A stretch of 40,300 nt of DNA from Thiobacillaceae bacterium (GTDB lineage Bacteria > Pseudomonadota > Gammaproteobacteria > Burkholderiales > Thiobacillaceae): positions 1 to 40,300 of the forward strand of contig JANWZL010000076.1 in NCBI GenBank assembly GCA_025054655.1, written 5' to 3'. Below are positions 8,309 through 40,300 of the stretch, piece by piece. Made by a program: the position numbers and the translations under genes. Every line of letters starts with the position of its first letter. The stretch's first letter is position 1. Below the pieces are notes generated by a model. It ran no database searches and had not been told where the DNA came from. It saw only the letters and a list, made by a program, of their open reading frames with translations.

Positions 8309-10778
<2,470 letters not shown>

Positions 10779-31798: not shown

Positions 31799-32647
31799 TC
31801 AGGGGTGTACGCGCACCGCCAGACCCAGCGCCTCGATGCGACGCGCGAGGGCGGTGAGCCACGCCGCGGGCAGGGCGGCCAGGCGTGGGGCCTCGGGTTG
31901 CAGCGAGGGGCGCGCCAGCCCGTACAGGAGCACCCCCTTGAGCGGCACGCCCTCGCGCACCGCGCGGGCGAGCAGATCGAGGTAGGCCGCGATCTCGTCC
32001 TCCTCCGGCGGGGCCCCATCGAGGGCGAACATGCAGGTCTGTATCCAGGTCGGGCAGAGCCGGGCGCACAATTCGAGCCGCCGGTAGTGATGCTGCGGAT
32101 CGACGTGGGCGTCGTTGATGCGTTCGATGCCGCTGCGGGTGGCGCGGTCGAGTTTGAACCACACCTCGCCGTTGAGGTCCGCCATGGCGCGCACCCCCGT
32201 CTGCACGCGGGGGCGTTCCATCTGGCTGCCATTGGTGATGAGCACCAGCTTGATGTGGCCCAGCAGGCCGAATTCACCGAGTACCCGGCCGATCAGCGCC
32301 ACCACTTGGGGGAACTCCGGGGCCGTGGTGGGTTCGCCATTGCCGGACAACGCCACGTCGTTCACCCGCCGCATGCCCTCCGGCGCATGCCGCGCCAACC
32401 AGTCGCCGTGCACGACGGCGGCCAGCATGTGCCGCAGCTCGTCCTCCAGCAGGGCGAGGTCTATGGGCGGCGGGCCGCCACGGCTGAGCCCCGGCACCTG
32501 ACAATAGATGCAGCGCCAGTTGCAGGCGTTGTTGGGGTTGAGGTTGACCCCCACCGACACGCCCTGCGCACGCCGGGACAGCACCGGATAGACGTACGTC
32601 ATGCCGGCGATGTCGCGCGCGTGGTCGGTGATGCTAAGCTCAGCCAT
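31799..32647 (-). CDS. Radical SAM protein
   Basis: NACNWRCIYCQVPG CX3CX2C cluster motif; ALSGNGEPTTAPEFPQV; start ATG at 32647. Confidence 0.92.
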   Translation of the reverse strand: MAELSITDHARDIAGMTYVYPVLSRRAQGVSVGVNLNPNNACNWRCIYCQVPGLSRGGPPPIDLALLEDELRHMLAAVVHGDWLARHAPEGMRRVNDVALSGNGEPTTAPEFPQVVALIGRVLGEFGLLGHIKLVLITNGSQMERPRVQTGVRAMADLNGEVWFKLDRATRSGIERINDAHVDPQHHYRRLELCARLCPTWIQTCMFALDGAPPEEDEIAAYLDLLARAVREGVPLKGVLLYGLARPSLQPEAPRLAALPAAWLTALARRIEALGLAVRVHP

Positions 32648-32680
32648 GCCCGCATTGTTGCACATCCTTCGACCAGCCCG

Positions 32681-33739
32681 ATGATGCAGGACTTCGCCGC
32701 GCGCCTGATCGACTGGCAGCGCACGCACGGCCGTCACGACCTGCCTTGGCAAGGCACGCGCGACCCCTATCGCATCTGGGTGGCGGAGATCATGCTGCAG
32801 CAGACCCAGGTGCTCACCGTCATCCCCTATTACACCCGCTTCCTCGCCCGCTTCCCCGACCTGGCGGAACTGGCTCGGGCCCCGCTGGAGGCGGTGCTGG
32901 CCCTATGGAGCGGGCTGGGCTACTACGCCCGCGCGCGCAACCTGCACCGCGCCGCCCGCCTCGTCGTCGAACGGCACGAGGGCCGCTTCCCGCGCCGGTT
33001 CGAGGACATCGTGCGGCTGCCCGGCGTGGGGCGTTCCACCGCCGCGGCCATCGCCGTGTTCGCCTATGGCGAGCGGCGCGCCATCCTCGACGGCAACGTG
33101 CGGCGCGTGCTCGCCCGCGTGTTCGGGGTGGAGGGCTGGCCGGGCCAGGCGGCGGTGGCCGCGCGGCTGTGGGCCTTGGCCGAGGCACTGCTGCCCGAGC
33201 ACGACCTGCCCGCCTACACCCAGGGGCTGATGGACCTGGGCGCCAGCGTGTGCACACGCCGCCGGCCGCGCTGCGCGCACTGCCCGCTGACCGCTTGCAG
33301 CGCCCGGCTGAGCGGTCGCCAGCACGAGCTGCCGGCACCGCGCCCGCGCCGCGATGCACCGCGGCGGGAGGCGGACCTGCTGGTGTTGCTGCATGCCGGG
33401 GCAGTGCTGCTGGAGCGCCGGCCGCCCAGCGGGGTGTGGGGCGGCCTGTGGAGTCTGCCGCAGTGTCCGCAGGGGGTCGATGCGGGCGAGGCCGCGCGCC
33501 GTCTGGGCTGCGAGCCCGCCGCCGTGGAGCCGTTGGCGCGGTTGGAACACGCCTTCACCCATTTCACCCTCAGCATCCGCCCCTGGCTGGTGCACGTGCG
33601 CGCGCCCATCGCCGCCAGCGAGTCGGCCGGGCGGCTGTGGCTGCCGCTCGCGGAGCTGGACGGTGCGGCCCTGCCCGCCCCCGTGCGGCGCCTGCTGCAG
33701 GCGGTGGACGCACGCACGGGACAGGCCGGACAGGAGTGA
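32681..33739 (+). CDS. mutY: A/G-specific adenine glycosylase
   Basis: LPWQGTRDPYRIWVAEIMLQQTQV, LWSGLGYYARARNLH, LPGVGRSTAAAIAVFAYGERRAILDGNVRRVLAR, Cys cluster CTRRRPRCAHCPLTAC, NUDIX-like C-term. Confidence 0.97.
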   Translation: MMQDFAARLIDWQRTHGRHDLPWQGTRDPYRIWVAEIMLQQTQVLTVIPYYTRFLARFPDLAELARAPLEAVLALWSGLGYYARARNLHRAARLVVERHEGRFPRRFEDIVRLPGVGRSTAAAIAVFAYGERRAILDGNVRRVLARVFGVEGWPGQAAVAARLWALAEALLPEHDLPAYTQGLMDLGASVCTRRRPRCAHCPLTACSARLSGRQHELPAPRPRRDAPRREADLLVLLHAGAVLLERRPPSGVWGGLWSLPQCPQGVDAGEAARRLGCEPAAVEPLARLEHAFTHFTLSIRPWLVHVRAPIAASESAGRLWLPLAELDGAALPAPVRRLLQAVDARTGQAGQE

Positions 33740-33741
33740 GC

Positions 33742-34746
33742 ATGCTGATCTGGGCCCAGTTCCTGCTGTGCCTGCTGCTGATCGCCGTGGCGGGCTACCG
33801 GCTGTCGCTCTATGGCGACATGATCGCCGAGAAGCTGGGGCTCACCCGCACCTGGATCGGGGTGATCCTGGTCGCCTCGGTGACCTCGCTGCCCGAGCTG
33901 GTCAGCGGGATCAGCGCGGTGACCGCGGCGCACACCCCGGACATCGCCGTGGGCGACGTGCTGGGCTCCTGTGTCTTCAACCTGGTGCTCATCGTGGTGA
34001 TCGACTTCTTGCAGCGGCAGGAGTCGGTCTACACCCGCGCCCATGTGGGTCACACCCTCACCGCCGCCTTCGGTGTGATCCTGATCGGTTTCGTCGGCCT
34101 GAACCTGCTGCTCGCCCGCGCGGGTCTGGTGCCAAGTCTGGGCCACGTCGGGCTGTATACGCCGGTCATCGTGCTGCTGTATGCGCTGGCCATGCGCGTA
34201 GTGTTCCAGTATGAGCAGATGCGCGGGCTGCCGACCGCGGAAGTGGTCGATGCGCGCTACCAGGCGGTCAGCCTGCGCCGCGCCGCCTGGGGCTATGCCC
34301 TGGCCGCCGCGGTGGTGGTGGCCGCCGGCGTGTGGCTGCCCTTCGTCGCCAAGGCCGTTGCTGCCCAGCACGGCTGGGGCGAGGGCTTCGTTGGCACCCT
34401 GTTTGTCGCCGCGGTCACCTCCGCCCCCGAGGCCGCGGTATCCATCGCCGCCGTGCGCCTGGGGGCGCTCGACCTGGCCCTGGGCAACCTGTTCGGCAGT
34501 AACCTGTTCAACATGGTGATCCTCGCCCTGGACGATCTGGCCTACACCCAAGCGCCGCTGTTCTCGGCGGTCGAGCCGGCGCATGCCGTGTCCGCCCTCT
34601 CCGCCATGGTCATGAGTGGCATCGCCATCGTCGGCCTGTTCTACCGCACGCGGCAGCGGGTGCTGCGCGCGGTGGGCTGGACGAGCCTGTTCCTGCTCGC
34701 CGTGTACCTGGTCAATGCCTATGCGCTCTATCTATACGGCCGCTGA
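33742..34746 (+). CDS. Sodium/calcium exchanger family (NCX/CaCA) membrane protein
   Basis: Two alpha-repeats VASVTSLPELVSGISAV and VAAVTSAPEAAVSIAAV, multiple TM helices. Confidence 0.88.
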   Translation: MLIWAQFLLCLLLIAVAGYRLSLYGDMIAEKLGLTRTWIGVILVASVTSLPELVSGISAVTAAHTPDIAVGDVLGSCVFNLVLIVVIDFLQRQESVYTRAHVGHTLTAAFGVILIGFVGLNLLLARAGLVPSLGHVGLYTPVIVLLYALAMRVVFQYEQMRGLPTAEVVDARYQAVSLRRAAWGYALAAAVVVAAGVWLPFVAKAVAAQHGWGEGFVGTLFVAAVTSAPEAAVSIAAVRLGALDLALGNLFGSNLFNMVILALDDLAYTQAPLFSAVEPAHAVSALSAMVMSGIAIVGLFYRTRQRVLRAVGWTSLFLLAVYLVNAYALYLYGR

Positions 34747-34758
34747 AGGCACGCGGTT

Positions 34759-35136
34759 TCAGTGCAACACGCGCGGCATGGACAGGACGAACTCGGGGAT
34801 TTCGGCCTCGAATCGGTGGCCATCCTCGGCCACCATCTGGTAGCTGCCGCGCATGGTGCCCACCGGGGTGGCGATGGCCGTGCCGCTGGTGTACTCGTAA
34901 CGCTCGCCGGGTCTGAGCAGCGGCTGCTCGCCCACCACTCCCAGGCCGCGCACCTCCTGCACCACCTGGTTGGCGTCGGTGATGATCCAATGGCGCGAGA
35001 TGAGCTGGGCGGCCAGTTCTCCGGTGTTGACGATGGTGATGGTGTAGGCGAAGACGAACCGGCCGGCCGCCTCGTCCGACTCCTCCGGCAGGTACACCGC
35101 CTGCGGCGTGACCTGGATGCGGTATTTGCTGGACAT
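34759..35136 (-). CDS. apaG: ApaG protein (Co2+/Mg2+ efflux protein)
   Basis: [75 protein letters not shown]. Confidence 0.97.
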
Positions 35137-35243
35137 GGGTGTGCGCGATCAAGGCTTGCGCCCATTGCACCCGAAAACGCGCGCCCTGTCCAGTCTGCGC
35201 GCGTGGGGTTAAAATAAAAACTTTGCCGAATCGGGACCCGATC

Positions 35244-35930
35244 ATGCCGCAATACCGCATCGCCCCCTCCATCCTGTCGGCCAACTTCGCCAAGCTGGGC
35301 GAGGAGGTGGACAACGTGCTCGCCGCCGGCGCCGACATCGTGCACTTCGACGTGATGGACAACCACTACGTGCCCAACCTCACCATCGGGCCGCTGGTGT
35401 GCGAGGCCCTGCGCAAGCACGGGGTCACCGCCCCCATCGACGTGCATCTGATGGTCAAGCCGGTCGATCGCATCATCCCCGATTTCGCCAAGGCCGGCGC
35501 CACCTACATCACTTTCCACCCCGAGGCGAGCGAACACATCGACCGCACCATAGGGCTGATCCGCGACAACGGCTGCAAGCCGGGCCTGGTGCTCAACCCG
35601 GCCACGCCGATCGAGGCCCTGGAGTGGGTGCTGGAAAAACTCGACATGGTGCTGCTGATGAGCGTGAACCCCGGCTTCGGTGGGCAGAAGTTCATCCCCT
35701 ACGTGCTGGAGAAGGCACGCCGGGTGCGTCGCATGATCGACGAGCGGGCGCCACACGTGAGCCTGGAGATCGACGGCGGGGTGGGGCCGACCAACATCGC
35801 CGAGGTCGCCCGCGCCGGGGTGGACACCTTCGTCGCTGGCTCGGCCATCTTCGGCGCCGGCAAGGACACCGACCCGCACCGCTACGACAGCGTCATCGCC
35901 GCCATGCGGGCGGAGCTGGCCAAGGTCTGA
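35244..35930 (+). CDS. rpe: Ribulose-phosphate 3-epimerase
   Basis: [71 protein letters not shown]. Confidence 0.98.
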
Positions 35931-36640
35931 TGCCGGGGTCACCCGCCGTGCCTGTCACGCCGGCACAACCGCTGGCCGTCCAGGCCGTGGTCATCGACCT
36001 CGACGGCACCCTGCTCGACACCGCCGCGGATCTGGCCGATGCGGCGGCGGCCATGGCCACCGAGCTGGGCCTGCCGGCGCCTGATCCGGAACGGCTGAAG
36101 ACCTACATCGGCAACGGCGTGTCGCGGCTGGTCAAGCGGGTGCTCACCGGCCAGATGCAGGCCGAGCCGCCAGCGGAGCTATTCGCGCGCGCCCTACCCA
36201 TTTTCGAACGCTACTATGGTCAGTGGGTCTCGCGCAAAAGCCGTCCCTATCCCGGGGTGGTCGAGGGCCTGCAGGCGTTCAGGGCGATGGGGCTGCGCCT
36301 GGCCTGCATCACCAACAAGGCCATGCGCTTCACCGAGCCCCTGCTCAAGGACACGGGGCTGTACGACTACTTCGAGCTGATCCTGGCCGGCGACAGCCTG
36401 CCGGAGAAGAAGCCCTCGCCGCTGCCGCTCAAGCATGCCTGCGCCGTGTTCGGCATCGCCCCACGTGAGCTGCTGCTGATCGGCGACTCGCTCAACGACA
36501 CCCAGGCCGCGCGCGCCGCCGGCTGCCCCGTGTTCTGCGTACCCTATGGTTATAACCGCGGCCGGCCGGTGGAGGAGCTCGAGCCCGACGCGGTGGTGGA
36601 CTCGCTCGCCGAGGTCGCCCGGCGGGTGGTCAGGGCGTGA
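35930..36640 (+). CDS. gph: Phosphoglycolate phosphatase (HAD family)
   Basis: [93 protein letters not shown]. Confidence 0.95.
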
Positions 36641-38100
36641 TGACCGAGGACCAGTTCAACGCCCTGGCCCGCGCGGGCTACAACCGCATCCCGGTGTTCC
36701 GTGTGCTGCCGGCGGACCTGGACACGCCGCTCGCGCTGTACCTGAAGCTGGCCAACCGGCCCTACACCTATCTGCTCGAATCGGTGGTCGGCGGCGAGCG
36801 TTTCGGCCGCTACTCCTTCATCGGCCTGCCGGCGCGCACCGTGCTGCGCGTGCATGGTCATTTCGTCAGCGTGGAGGTCGATGGTGCCGCCGTGGAGCAG
36901 GGTGACCACGCCGATCCGCTCGCCTTCGTGCAGGCCTTCCTCGGCCGCTACAGGGCCGCACCGCTGCCTGGACTGGCGCGTTTCCCCGGCGGCTTGTGCG
37001 GCTATTTCGGCTATGACACCGTGCGTTACATCGAAAAGCGGCTCGCCGGTACGGTCAAGCCCGACCCCATCGCCGCGCCGGACATCCTGCTGCTGCTTAC
37101 CGACGAGTTGGCGGTGGTGGACAACCTGAGCGGGCGGCTCACCCTCATCGTCTATGCCGACCCGCTGCAGCCCGAGGCCTATGCGCGCGCGCAGCTGCGG
37201 CTGCACGAGCTGGCCGCCGCACTCGACCGCCCCGTACACGCCCCGGCGGTGGTGCGCGCCGAGCCGGCGGAGCCGGTGAGCGAGTTCGGCGAGGCGGCGT
37301 TCAAGGCCGCGGTCGAGCGGGCCAAGCGCTACATCTACGACGGCGACATCATGCAGGTGGTGCTCTCGCAGCGCTTGCGCCGACCCTTCCGTGCCCATCC
37401 GCTGGCGCTGTACCGGGCGCTGCGCAGCCTCAACCCTTCGCCCTACATGTTCTATTTCGACCTGGGCAACTTCCACGTGGTGGGTGCCTCGCCCGAGATC
37501 CTGGTGCGGCTGGAGGGCGGCACCGTCACCGTGCGCCCCATCGCCGGCACGCGACCGCGCGGGGCCACGCGCGAGGAGGATCTGCGGCTGGAGGCGGAGC
37601 TGCTGGCCGATCCCAAGGAGCGGGCCGAGCACGTGCAGCTGATGGACCTGGGGCGCAACGACGTCGGCCGGGTGGCCGAGGTGGGCAGCGTGCGGGTGAC
37701 CGAGCACATGGTGGTGGAGCGTTATTCCCACGTCATGCACATCGTCTCCAACGTGGAGGGGCGGCTCAAGGCGGGCCTCACCGCCATGGACGTGCTACGC
37801 GCCACCTTCCCGGCCGGCACGGTGAGCGGTGCGCCCAAGATCCGCGCCATGGAGATCATCGACGAGCTGGAGCCGACCAAGCGCGGCGTCTATGCCGGGG
37901 CCGTGGGCTATCTCGGCTTCAGTGGCGACATGGACCTGGCCATCGCCATCCGCACCGCCGTCATCAAGGACCAGACCTTGTACGTGCAGGCGGGCGCCGG
38001 CATCGTGGCCGACTCCCAGCCCGACAGCGAGTGGCGCGAGACCTGCAACAAGGCCCAGGCCGTCATACGCGCCGCGGAGCTCGCCCTGGGCGGCGACTGA
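36637..38100 (+). CDS. trpE: Anthranilate synthase component I
   Basis: [95 protein letters not shown]. Confidence 0.97.
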
Positions 38101-38244
38101 CCGCCCGCTGAGGCCCAGCTGGCCCAGCCCGGCGTTGCGGCGATGGCGCCCCCCGCCCGAGGCCGCCGCAAGCTTGCCGCAGGCGCGCATTGCGCCAGCA
38201 TCGGGCACAATAGCCCCAGGGAAGCATCAGGCTGGGACCGAATC

Positions 38245-39252
38245 ATGGACGAGCAGGACGCACCACGCCAGCGCGCAGCAGCGCCGGACCCCGGACAGCC
38301 TTTGCGGCTGCCGGTCGGCCGCTACCGCGCACGATTCGAGGCCGAACGACCTGTGCGCATGAGCGAGTTCCCTGGCTCTGCCTGGCGCGGCGCCTTGGGG
38401 CACGCCCTGAAGAGAACGGTGTGCATGACCCGTCTGCCCCGTTGCCGGGAGTGCGCGCTGTACCATTCCTGCGCCTTCCCGTATTTCTACGACACGCCCC
38501 CGCTGCCGGGCTCGATCAAAATGCGCCGCTACCAGACGGCGCCGCATCCCTACGTCCTGTTGCCCGGCGAGGATGGCGCGACGGACTATGCGCTCGACTT
38601 CACCCTGATCGGCCAGGCCAACCGCCACCTCGCCCTGATCATCCATGCGCTCGCCAAGGCAGCCCAGGGCCGTAAGGGTGTGGCCGGAAACATCCTCCAA
38701 TTGCGCGCAGTCGAACAGGAGACCGCACCTCTGGGCAGCAACACCTGGCAGCCCATCTACCGACCGGGAACGTCCCTTGAGGCTCTACCGCTCGCCCGCC
38801 CTGAAATCCCCCCGGCGCCCACATCCTGCCGCATCCGGCTGCTGACCCCCATGCGCGTCAAACGCGAGGGCCGGCGCGTCGGTCCCGTGGAATTCCGCTT
38901 TGCCGACCTGTTCGGGCATTTGCTGCGGCGGGTCTCCATGCTCACGGCCTTCCACACCGACACCCCGCTGGAGACGGATTTCCGCGGCCTGATGGCGCAG
39001 GCCCGGCAGGTGACGGCGCGTAGCGAGCTCGCCTGGGAGGAGAAGCCGCGCTACTCGAACTCACAGAAGGCGGCCATGAAGCTGGGCGGGGTGGTGGGGA
39101 GCATCCACCTCGTGGGTGTGGACCTGGCGCCCTTCTGGCCCTACCTGTGGCTGGGCCAGTTCATCCACGCCGGCAGCGGGGCCACCATGGGCCTGGGTCG
39201 GTACGAGATCGAAGCGGCAAGCTTGCAGGCTCATCCCCTGAGCCCGAGCTGA
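38245..39252 (+). CDS. cas6: CRISPR system precrRNA-processing endoribonuclease RAMP protein Cas6-like
   Basis: FPGSAWRGALGHALKRTVCMTRLPRCRECALYHSCAFPYFYDTP (Cys-rich RAMP N-term) and C-terminal Gly-rich GQFIHAGSGATMGLGRYEI; adjacent CARF gene. Confidence 0.82.
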   Translation: MDEQDAPRQRAAAPDPGQPLRLPVGRYRARFEAERPVRMSEFPGSAWRGALGHALKRTVCMTRLPRCRECALYHSCAFPYFYDTPPLPGSIKMRRYQTAPHPYVLLPGEDGATDYALDFTLIGQANRHLALIIHALAKAAQGRKGVAGNILQLRAVEQETAPLGSNTWQPIYRPGTSLEALPLARPEIPPAPTSCRIRLLTPMRVKREGRRVGPVEFRFADLFGHLLRRVSMLTAFHTDTPLETDFRGLMAQARQVTARSELAWEEKPRYSNSQKAAMKLGGVVGSIHLVGVDLAPFWPYLWLGQFIHAGSGATMGLGRYEIEAASLQAHPLSPS

Positions 39253-39285
39253 CCGAAAATGCGGGGGTGACAGGAGGACGCAGCC

Positions 39286-40300
39286 ATGACACCCGATCAG
39301 CCGCACACCTATCCCCGCCGCATCCTGCTCGCCGTCACCGGGCTGTCGCCGCAGGTGGTGACCGAGACCCTGTACGCCCTCACGCAGCAGACGCCCGCCT
39401 TCGTGCCCACCGAGGTGCGGCTCATCACTACGCGCGAGGGGGCCGAGCGCGCCCGCCACGCCCTGCTGTCGCAGGACCCCGGCTGGTTCGCGCGCTTCTG
39501 CCGCGACTACGGGCTCAGCGGGCTGCGCTTCGACGAGACCTGCATCGAGGTGCTCACCGACGCAGCAGGGGCTGTGCTCGACGACATCCGCACCCCCGCC
39601 GACAACCAGCGTGCCGCCGACGCCATCACCGAGACCGTGCGCGCCCTCACCGCCGACGAACAGGCGGCATTGCATGTGTCGATCGCCGGCGGGCGCAAGA
39701 CCATGGGCTATTACCTCGGCTACGCCCTGTCCCTGTTCGGCCGCCCGCAGGATCGCCTGTCGCACGTGCTGGTCAGCGAGCCGTTCGAATCGAGCTGGGA
39801 CTTTTTCTATCCCACCCCCTATGAGCGCATCATCCAGACCCGTAACGACAAGCTGGCCGACTGCCGCGAGGCGCGCGTCACCCTGGCCGAGATCCCCTTC
39901 GTGCGCCTGCGCGAGGGGCTGCCGCCCAGGTTGCTGCAGGGCGATGCGCGCCTGAGCGAGATCGTCGCCGCCGCCAATCGCGCCTTGCAGTCACCCCGGC
40001 TGGTGATCGACCTGGTCGCCCGTGCGGTGTGGGCTGACGATACCCGCATCGAACTCAGTACGGTCGAACTGGCCATCCTCTACTGGCTCGCCCGCCGAGC
40101 ACGCCGTGGCGAGGCCGGCGTGGATTGGACCACATCCCAGGCGGCGGATGAATTCCTCGACCTGGCGCGACATGTGATCAACCCCTCCAGCGGCGAATAC
40201 GAGCGGGCCAAGGAATCGCTCGACTGGCGTCGCCCGGCGGCAATCAGGCTGGGCGAGTATTTCCAGCCGCACAAGTCGCGCATCAACCGCGCCTTCGCCG
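39286..40300 (+). CDS. CRISPR-associated CARF / ring nuclease (Csm6-like, NE0113 family), truncated by window end
   Basis: Own translation, ORF open to the window edge and absent from the track: MTPDQPHTYPRRILLAVTGLSPQVVTETLYALTQQTPAFVPTEVRLITTREGAERARHALLS...LHVSIAGGRKTMGYYLGYALSLFGRPQDRLSHVLVSEPFESSWDFFYPTPYERI. Confidence 0.85.
   Translation, partial: MTPDQPHTYPRRILLAVTGLSPQVVTETLYALTQQTPAFVPTEVRLITTREGAERARHALLSQDPGWFARFCRDYGLSGLRFDETCIEVLTDAAGAVLDDIRTPADNQRAADAITETVRALTADEQAALHVSIAGGRKTMGYYLGYALSLFGRPQDRLSHVLVSEPFESSWDFFYPTPYERIIQTRNDKLADCREARVTLAEIPFVRLREGLPPRLLQGDARLSEIVAAANRALQSPRLVIDLVARAVWADDTRIELSTVELAILYWLARRARRGEAGVDWTTSQAADEFLDLARHVINPSSGEYERAKESLDWRRPAAIRLGEYFQPHKSRINRAFA

Follow-up and report, generated by a model that had tools for sequence, protein, structure and literature searches.

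Does the CARF protein encoded at the right end of this contig degrade cyclic oligoadenylates (cOA), as its name in public records suggests, or does it control the transcription of the CRISPR locus to which it belongs? The regulation of type III CRISPR loci in bacteria is largely open; regulators were left for later work in a survey of type III effectors (PMC11229360). The analysed stretch of 40,300 bp, hereafter called the window, is the entire contig C141 (genome G000) of a MAG that consists of 157 contigs and is 84% complete. In our opinion, the protein is fairly likely to be a cOA-responsive regulator, probably an activator, of its own type III-B locus. The chief result was obtained in part beyond the gene described in the earlier note, at the predicted promoters at 38168–38211 and 39217–39260.

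The CARF gene and the predicted folds of its product

The reading frame beginning with ATG at 39286 is open to 40299 in the window letters, which corresponds to 338 codons with one base over. The window comprises the contig in full, so the truncation is due to the assembly and not to the choice of the window; the frame runs off the contig, and an ORF list requiring a stop codon would omit it. Complete homologues are mostly 369–400 aa in length, so about 35 C-terminal residues are missing; full-length homologues occur, for instance, in Allochromatium vinosum DSM 180 (WP_012972302.1) and in Hydrogenophilus thiooxidans SS56 (L019). The features of the gene and its product are the following:

39272–39277, plus strand: Shine-Dalgarno sequence AGGAGG, read directly, preceding the CARF ATG
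39286–40300, plus strand: CARF5/NE0113 gene, 338 of about 375 codons, the rest lying beyond the contig end
Residues about 1–232 of the CARF5/NE0113 protein: CARF domain
Residues from about 234: predicted OmpR-type winged helix, its last part missing

The product was matched by PF09623 of Pfam (E=2e-52, 178 bits against a cut-off of 23) and by TIGR02584 of NCBIfam (E=2e-73, 247 bits against a cut-off of 80.7), and the PADLOC model CARF5--CARF covers its residues 11–337 (E=2e-124). At the sequence level, the frame is confirmed as a real gene, far beyond chance. The earlier note had read an open frame from 39286 to 40300 and placed its product in the NE0113 family of CARF proteins; both claims were borne out, all the peptides quoted there being present in the translation and both family profiles scoring above their curated cut-offs. 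No relatives of the protein were found in phage and viral collections, and a phmmer search against the PDB gave no CARF match.

The CARF fold was studied on a model of a 75% identical homologue, and the nearest structures were the CARF domain of Cad1 (Z 15.3) and the Crn1 ring nucleases (Z about 14), the whole range being 13.9–15.3. They differ from the protein considered here in that Crn1 has no winged helix and Cad1 carries a deaminase. The C-terminal 136 residues modelled alone gave a pLDDT of 94.7, and in a structure search with them, 97 chains reached a Z of 5 or more. Of the 50 top-scoring chains, almost every one was an OmpR/PhoB-type DNA-binding domain, BaeR ranking first (Z 9.6). This assignment is made at the fold level, sequence profiles being sub-threshold: Pfam searches with winged-helix domains alone gave only sub-threshold HTH matches, a weak signal pointing in the same direction as the fold evidence. 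An OmpR/PhoB-type winged helix is thus predicted with high confidence at the C-terminus, and HEPN is absent from the protein, its modelled C-terminal domain being this winged helix. The suggestion of a winged helix rather than a HEPN domain at this end of the protein, made earlier from the letters, agrees with the model.

With the Csm6/Csx1 ribonucleases the protein shares a CARF domain, the type III context and a database name, but it has no HEPN or other effector domain. With response regulators of the OmpR/PhoB type (BaeR, PhoB, RstA) it has in common the fold of the C-terminal DNA-binding domain; those regulators possess a phosphorylated receiver, whereas here a CARF domain is found, together with a longer helical part in the winged helix. 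The archaeal Csa3, a CARF-wHTH protein, is a cA4-binding regulator of CRISPR genes (PMC8844856, PMC8699464) and shows the same order of a CARF domain followed by a winged helix. However, Csa3 belongs to a different family and to type I-A systems of archaea, in contrast to the bacterial type III-B context and OmpR-type winged helix considered here; the similarity of the CARF domains reaches only Z 9.2, and no Csa3 model was among the NCBIfam matches up to E=1. In RtcR, a CARF domain also controls transcription (PMC9650030), but this protein is an NtrC-like sigma-54 activator of RNA repair genes, not of CRISPR genes.

Type III-B surroundings

One cas gene precedes the CARF gene in the window:

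38245–39252, plus strand: cas6 (PF10040, E=2e-17; PADLOC Cas6, E=4e-87), directly upstream of the CARF gene

Its start is likely ATG 38245, judging from homology and sequence, and the longest frame begins at 38143. Ordinary housekeeping-like genes occupy 31805–38100, including trpE at 36637–38100 (by Pfam) and, by eye, mutY-, antiporter-, rpe- and gph-like frames, so the cas genes stand at the edge of a chromosomal block.

The remaining genes of the system were found elsewhere. On contig C116 of the same MAG, the first gene is cmr3, of which only the 3' end is present; cmr4, cmr5 and cmr6 come next, and beyond cmr6 there are III-D-like cas10 and cas7/cas5 genes. A sister species with a 70% identical protein has the order cas6-CARF-cmr1, after which its contig ends. 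In a relative with 75% identity, the CARF gene is flanked by cas6 and cas1/cas2-like genes, and the vicinity includes cmr genes and a CRISPR-like repeat array. The genes cmr1, cmr2 and cmr6 were found on the same stretch as the CARF gene in 20 of 80 loci, typically in the order cas6-CARF-(Can2 or Csx1)-cmr1-6. At the family level, all 11 genomes with Cmr4 above the cut-off carry PF09623, which is present in 22 of 117 genomes overall (Fisher p about 1e-9); at the order level, it was found in 8 of 14 genomes with Cmr4. It is well supported by these gene neighbourhoods that the CARF gene belongs to a type III-B (Cmr) system, though this system is not visible in the window. The type III system that the earlier note had expected on the right is therefore borne out by the cmr genes of C116 and by the CARF-cmr neighbourhoods in relatives. 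Comparison of the right end of C141 with the starts of C116 and C44 or their reverse complements gave no overlap of 15–159 bases, and the last 200 bases of C141 have no near-identical copy elsewhere in the MAG.

As to a possible source of cOA, no Cmr2 was recovered in the incomplete MAG; a relative has Cmr2 with the GGDD cyclase motif, and C116 and C44 encode III-D-like Cas10 proteins in which this motif occurs. They belong to two III-D-like modules, L098 (G000:C116, 3678–10220) and L099 (G000:C44, 8159–13054), each with a small Cas10 keeping GGDD; the module on C116 directly follows cmr6. The C44 module includes cas6 and a GCAAGCTTGC site between cas6 and cas10.

Other genes accompany these loci. 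In several relatives, toxin-antitoxin-like genes are inserted between or among cmr3-cmr6 at varied points (L105 7047–8036, L100 18051–18768, L019 17883–18520), RhuM/Fic being recognised by Pfam and nucleotidyltransferase- and VapC-like genes by eye. A DUF2130 (PF09903) gene also lies directly downstream of the CARF gene and before cmr1 in several relatives, in L102 at 8385–9740, with similar genes in L103, L229, L042 and L242; its product is possibly an accessory of the CRISPR system.

The palindrome and the predicted promoters

The palindrome GCAAGCTTGC was first seen when DNA upstream of the window genes was compared with that of the nearest relatives. It occurs twice in the window (0.08 sites expected), each time with a predicted -10 box:

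38168–38177, plus strand: candidate operator 1, GCAAGCTTGC, an exact palindrome upstream of cas6, at the same position in relatives
38206–38211, plus strand: CACAAT, the predicted -10 box for cas6, 28 nt downstream of operator 1
39217–39226, plus strand: candidate operator 2, GCAAGCTTGC, within the 3' coding end of cas6, 69 bp upstream of the CARF start
39255–39260, plus strand: GAAAAT, the predicted -10 box for the CARF gene, 28 nt downstream of operator 2

The forms of the candidate operator at these predicted promoters include GCAAGCTTGC and ACAAGCTTGT, with the consensus RCAAGCTTGY. The whole MAG (2.2 Mb) contains only five such sites, two of them on C141. The remaining three are the C44 site between cas6 and cas10, a site next to a transposase-like fragment and a site within an ATP-synthase-like gene. 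Genomes of relatives show a background of a few to a few tens of sites each.

In 88 CARF loci, 185 sites were found in 1.2 Mb. A site lies at most 200 bp upstream of the CARF gene in 52 of 88 cases, of cmr1 in 22 of 36 (many at 59–66 bp), of cas6 in 14 of 52 and of cmr4 in 9 of 30. Altogether, 97 of 206 CARF, cmr1, cas6 and cmr4 genes have a site upstream, compared with 1 of 172 cmr2, cmr3, cmr5, cmr6, Csx1 and Can2 genes (Fisher p=2e-30, a value which is not exact, the loci being related). Of 23 cas1 genes, 14 have a site with a -10 box on their own strand, at most 1.6 kb upstream. Sites inside the cas6 coding sequence encode A-S-L in frame 0 (15 of 17), and those inside cmr3 encode K-L-A or K-L-V in frame 1 (27 of 27). 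The palindrome is therefore conserved as DNA, and an artefact of conserved coding as the source of the motif was rejected, the motif occurring in two different reading frames.

The distance to the -10 box is also conserved. Among 103 non-redundant oriented sites, 71 are followed at 27–29 nt by a TATAAT-like hexamer (at least 4 of 6 positions), the distance from the palindrome being exactly 28 nt in 52; other offset triples gave 4.5 sites with such a hexamer on average and 9 at most, and for the same 103 sites there was no such peak on the opposite strand. In the aligned -10 boxes, position -11 is A in 91% and position -7 is T in 93%. A -35 hexamer is almost absent from the aligned promoters of the non-redundant sites, and a scan for canonical promoters found nothing, as expected when there is no -35 box. 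Both window promoters obey the 28-nt spacing rule exactly. If a conventional start point is assumed, the palindrome is centred near -45, and this placement together with the lack of a -35 box suggests an arrangement of the activator type. Transcription would then be predicted to begin about 40 nt downstream of the palindromes, near 38218 and 39267 in the window. The family, the predicted folds, the operon context and the palindromes with their spacing to -10 boxes are supported by computation.

The distribution of the candidate operator has its limits. Fourteen of the 88 CARF loci, including those of methanotroph relatives, have no site at all, a relative on an Aeromonas plasmid (41%) has none, and in Vibrio (39%) none lies upstream of csm6; these cases count against a regulatory role. 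At the cmr3 end of the MAG itself, the site is degenerate (ACATGCTTGC) with the -10 spacing kept, and this counts against such a role as well. In view of the site-less loci and relatives, the candidate operator is limited to one large clade and does not extend to every NE0113 protein. In a later check, nine sites were counted in 44 kb of annotated plasmid sequence from Allochromatium tepidum and A. vinosum (about 60% identity). Five of them are followed at exactly 28 nt by a -10 box matching at 4/6 positions, and a 3/6 box stands at 28 nt in another three. These sites are found upstream of an EcsC gene preceding csm6, of csx16 (A. tepidum) and of a gene preceding cas2/cas1. On the two plasmids (L278 7762–17456, L279 6302–11021), the palindrome precedes an EcsC-family gene, csx16 and a radical-SAM cluster, which suggests that these are further regulon members.

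Upstream of a divergent CARF gene (L087, 1897–1959) there are two copies of a variant palindrome, ACAAATTTGT, one of them with TAAATT 28 nt downstream. It is possible that ACAAATTTGT is a diverged operator; as proof of covariation between the operator and the recognition helix it was rejected, one locus being too little.

Probable regulation and the other explanations

A transcriptional regulator is indicated by the operator and promoter elements, which the earlier note did not see. We infer binding of the palindrome by this protein, control of the protein by cOA and an activating effect. The N-terminal CARF domain would form a dimer and bind cOA made by Cas10, and the dimer would bind RCAAGCTTGY, centred at about -45, at promoters with a -10 but no -35 box; transcription of cas6, cmr1, cmr4, the CARF gene itself and often cas1 would start from such promoters. 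The bound dimer would most likely activate them, in which case cOA triggered by infection would raise the expression of the immune complex in a positive feedback, and a ring-nuclease activity of the CARF domain may serve as a reset. Only tentatively, and with somewhat less than even confidence, we propose the full form of this scheme: a cOA-gated positive-feedback switch, in which CARF-winged-helix dimers at -45 turn on crRNA-processing, Cmr, adaptation and sensor genes, and ring-nuclease activity of the CARF domain or of Csx16 acts as a timer.

The position of the palindrome may be compatible with repression too. A dimer at -45 would then block RNA polymerase and be released by cOA, so that the locus is derepressed on infection. 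The same structural and operator evidence fits this explanation, and autoregulation is common among repressors, but the promoters have no -35 box and the site lies upstream of the -35 position, as in activator-dependent promoters, and we regard a repressor as unlikely.

It is quite unlikely that the protein is chiefly a ring nuclease which degrades cOA and switches the response off, its winged helix being structural, like the HTH region of Csx1. Such a function would leave a full OmpR-type winged helix and an operator-like palindrome at promoters unexplained. It agrees with the TIGR02584 name and with the label "CRISPR-associated ring nuclease Csm6" given to NE0113 proteins in public records (RefSeq "csm6"); this, which the earlier note also took up, is, however, a database name, and the literature search found no activity experiment on the NE0113 family. 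The closeness of the fold to Crn1 and Cad1, of which the latter has a CARF domain that cleaves cA4 (PMC12669630), and a GGRKT motif whose residues, including the lysine, are invariant in 50 sequences also speak for cleavage, but 15 of 80 of these loci contain the Csx16 family, a member of which is a confirmed cA4 ring nuclease (PMC12409355).

The palindrome might instead be bound by another factor of the host or locus, the CARF protein being an effector that merely shares the locus. Binding by the CARF protein is deduced here, and two genomes in which no PF09623 gene was detected have sites upstream of cmr genes, which would count against its regulatory role; as these contigs stop at most about 0.5 kb upstream of cmr1, the usual place of the CARF gene, the gene may have been missed there. 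This explanation is very unlikely, considering that the protein has a predicted DNA-binding domain and that sites accompany its gene in many lineages, including MAGs assigned to Acidobacteria and Chloroflexi (bin errors are possible). Moreover, no site was found in seven type III-B stretches (84 kb) without an adjacent CARF gene, which include second Cmr systems of genomes with the CARF gene elsewhere. Finally, a role in RNA (a hairpin or processing site) or as a mobile repeat, unrelated to transcription control, is extremely improbable: the palindrome is self-complementary and precedes genes in operons, but, being gapless and having an invariant AAGCTT at its centre, it has no room for a hairpin loop, its place upstream of the -10 box would keep it out of transcripts from that promoter, and its flanks are not conserved as in mobile repeats.

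Regulation by NE0113 proteins is not a new idea, since the members of this family were predicted in 2014 to regulate transcription and to lack an effector domain (PMC4012209). By sequence, the protein is a full-length member of this family (NE0113/CARF5; PF09623, TIGR02584) and does not differ from it as a protein; added here are the OmpR-type winged-helix assignment, the promoter architecture, the target genes and, as the new element, the candidate palindrome operator. No published operator for NE0113 proteins was found in the literature searched, an absence which is not proof; among the matches listed for CARF, promoter and palindrome were Csa3, effectors, RtcR and reviews, and those listed for the palindrome sequence itself were unrelated.

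Summarizing the significance of a regulator of this kind, it may be said that, if the operator is right, cOA would control the transcription of the immune system as well as its effector enzymes, and the family annotated as "ring nuclease Csm6" in public genomes would have to be renamed. A direct and inexpensive test is offered by the palindrome with its constant distance from the -10 box, and the type strain Allochromatium vinosum DSM 180 could serve for it as well. If the proposed feedback switch is true, the label "csm6 ring nuclease" would hide a widespread family of infection-responsive transcription activators.
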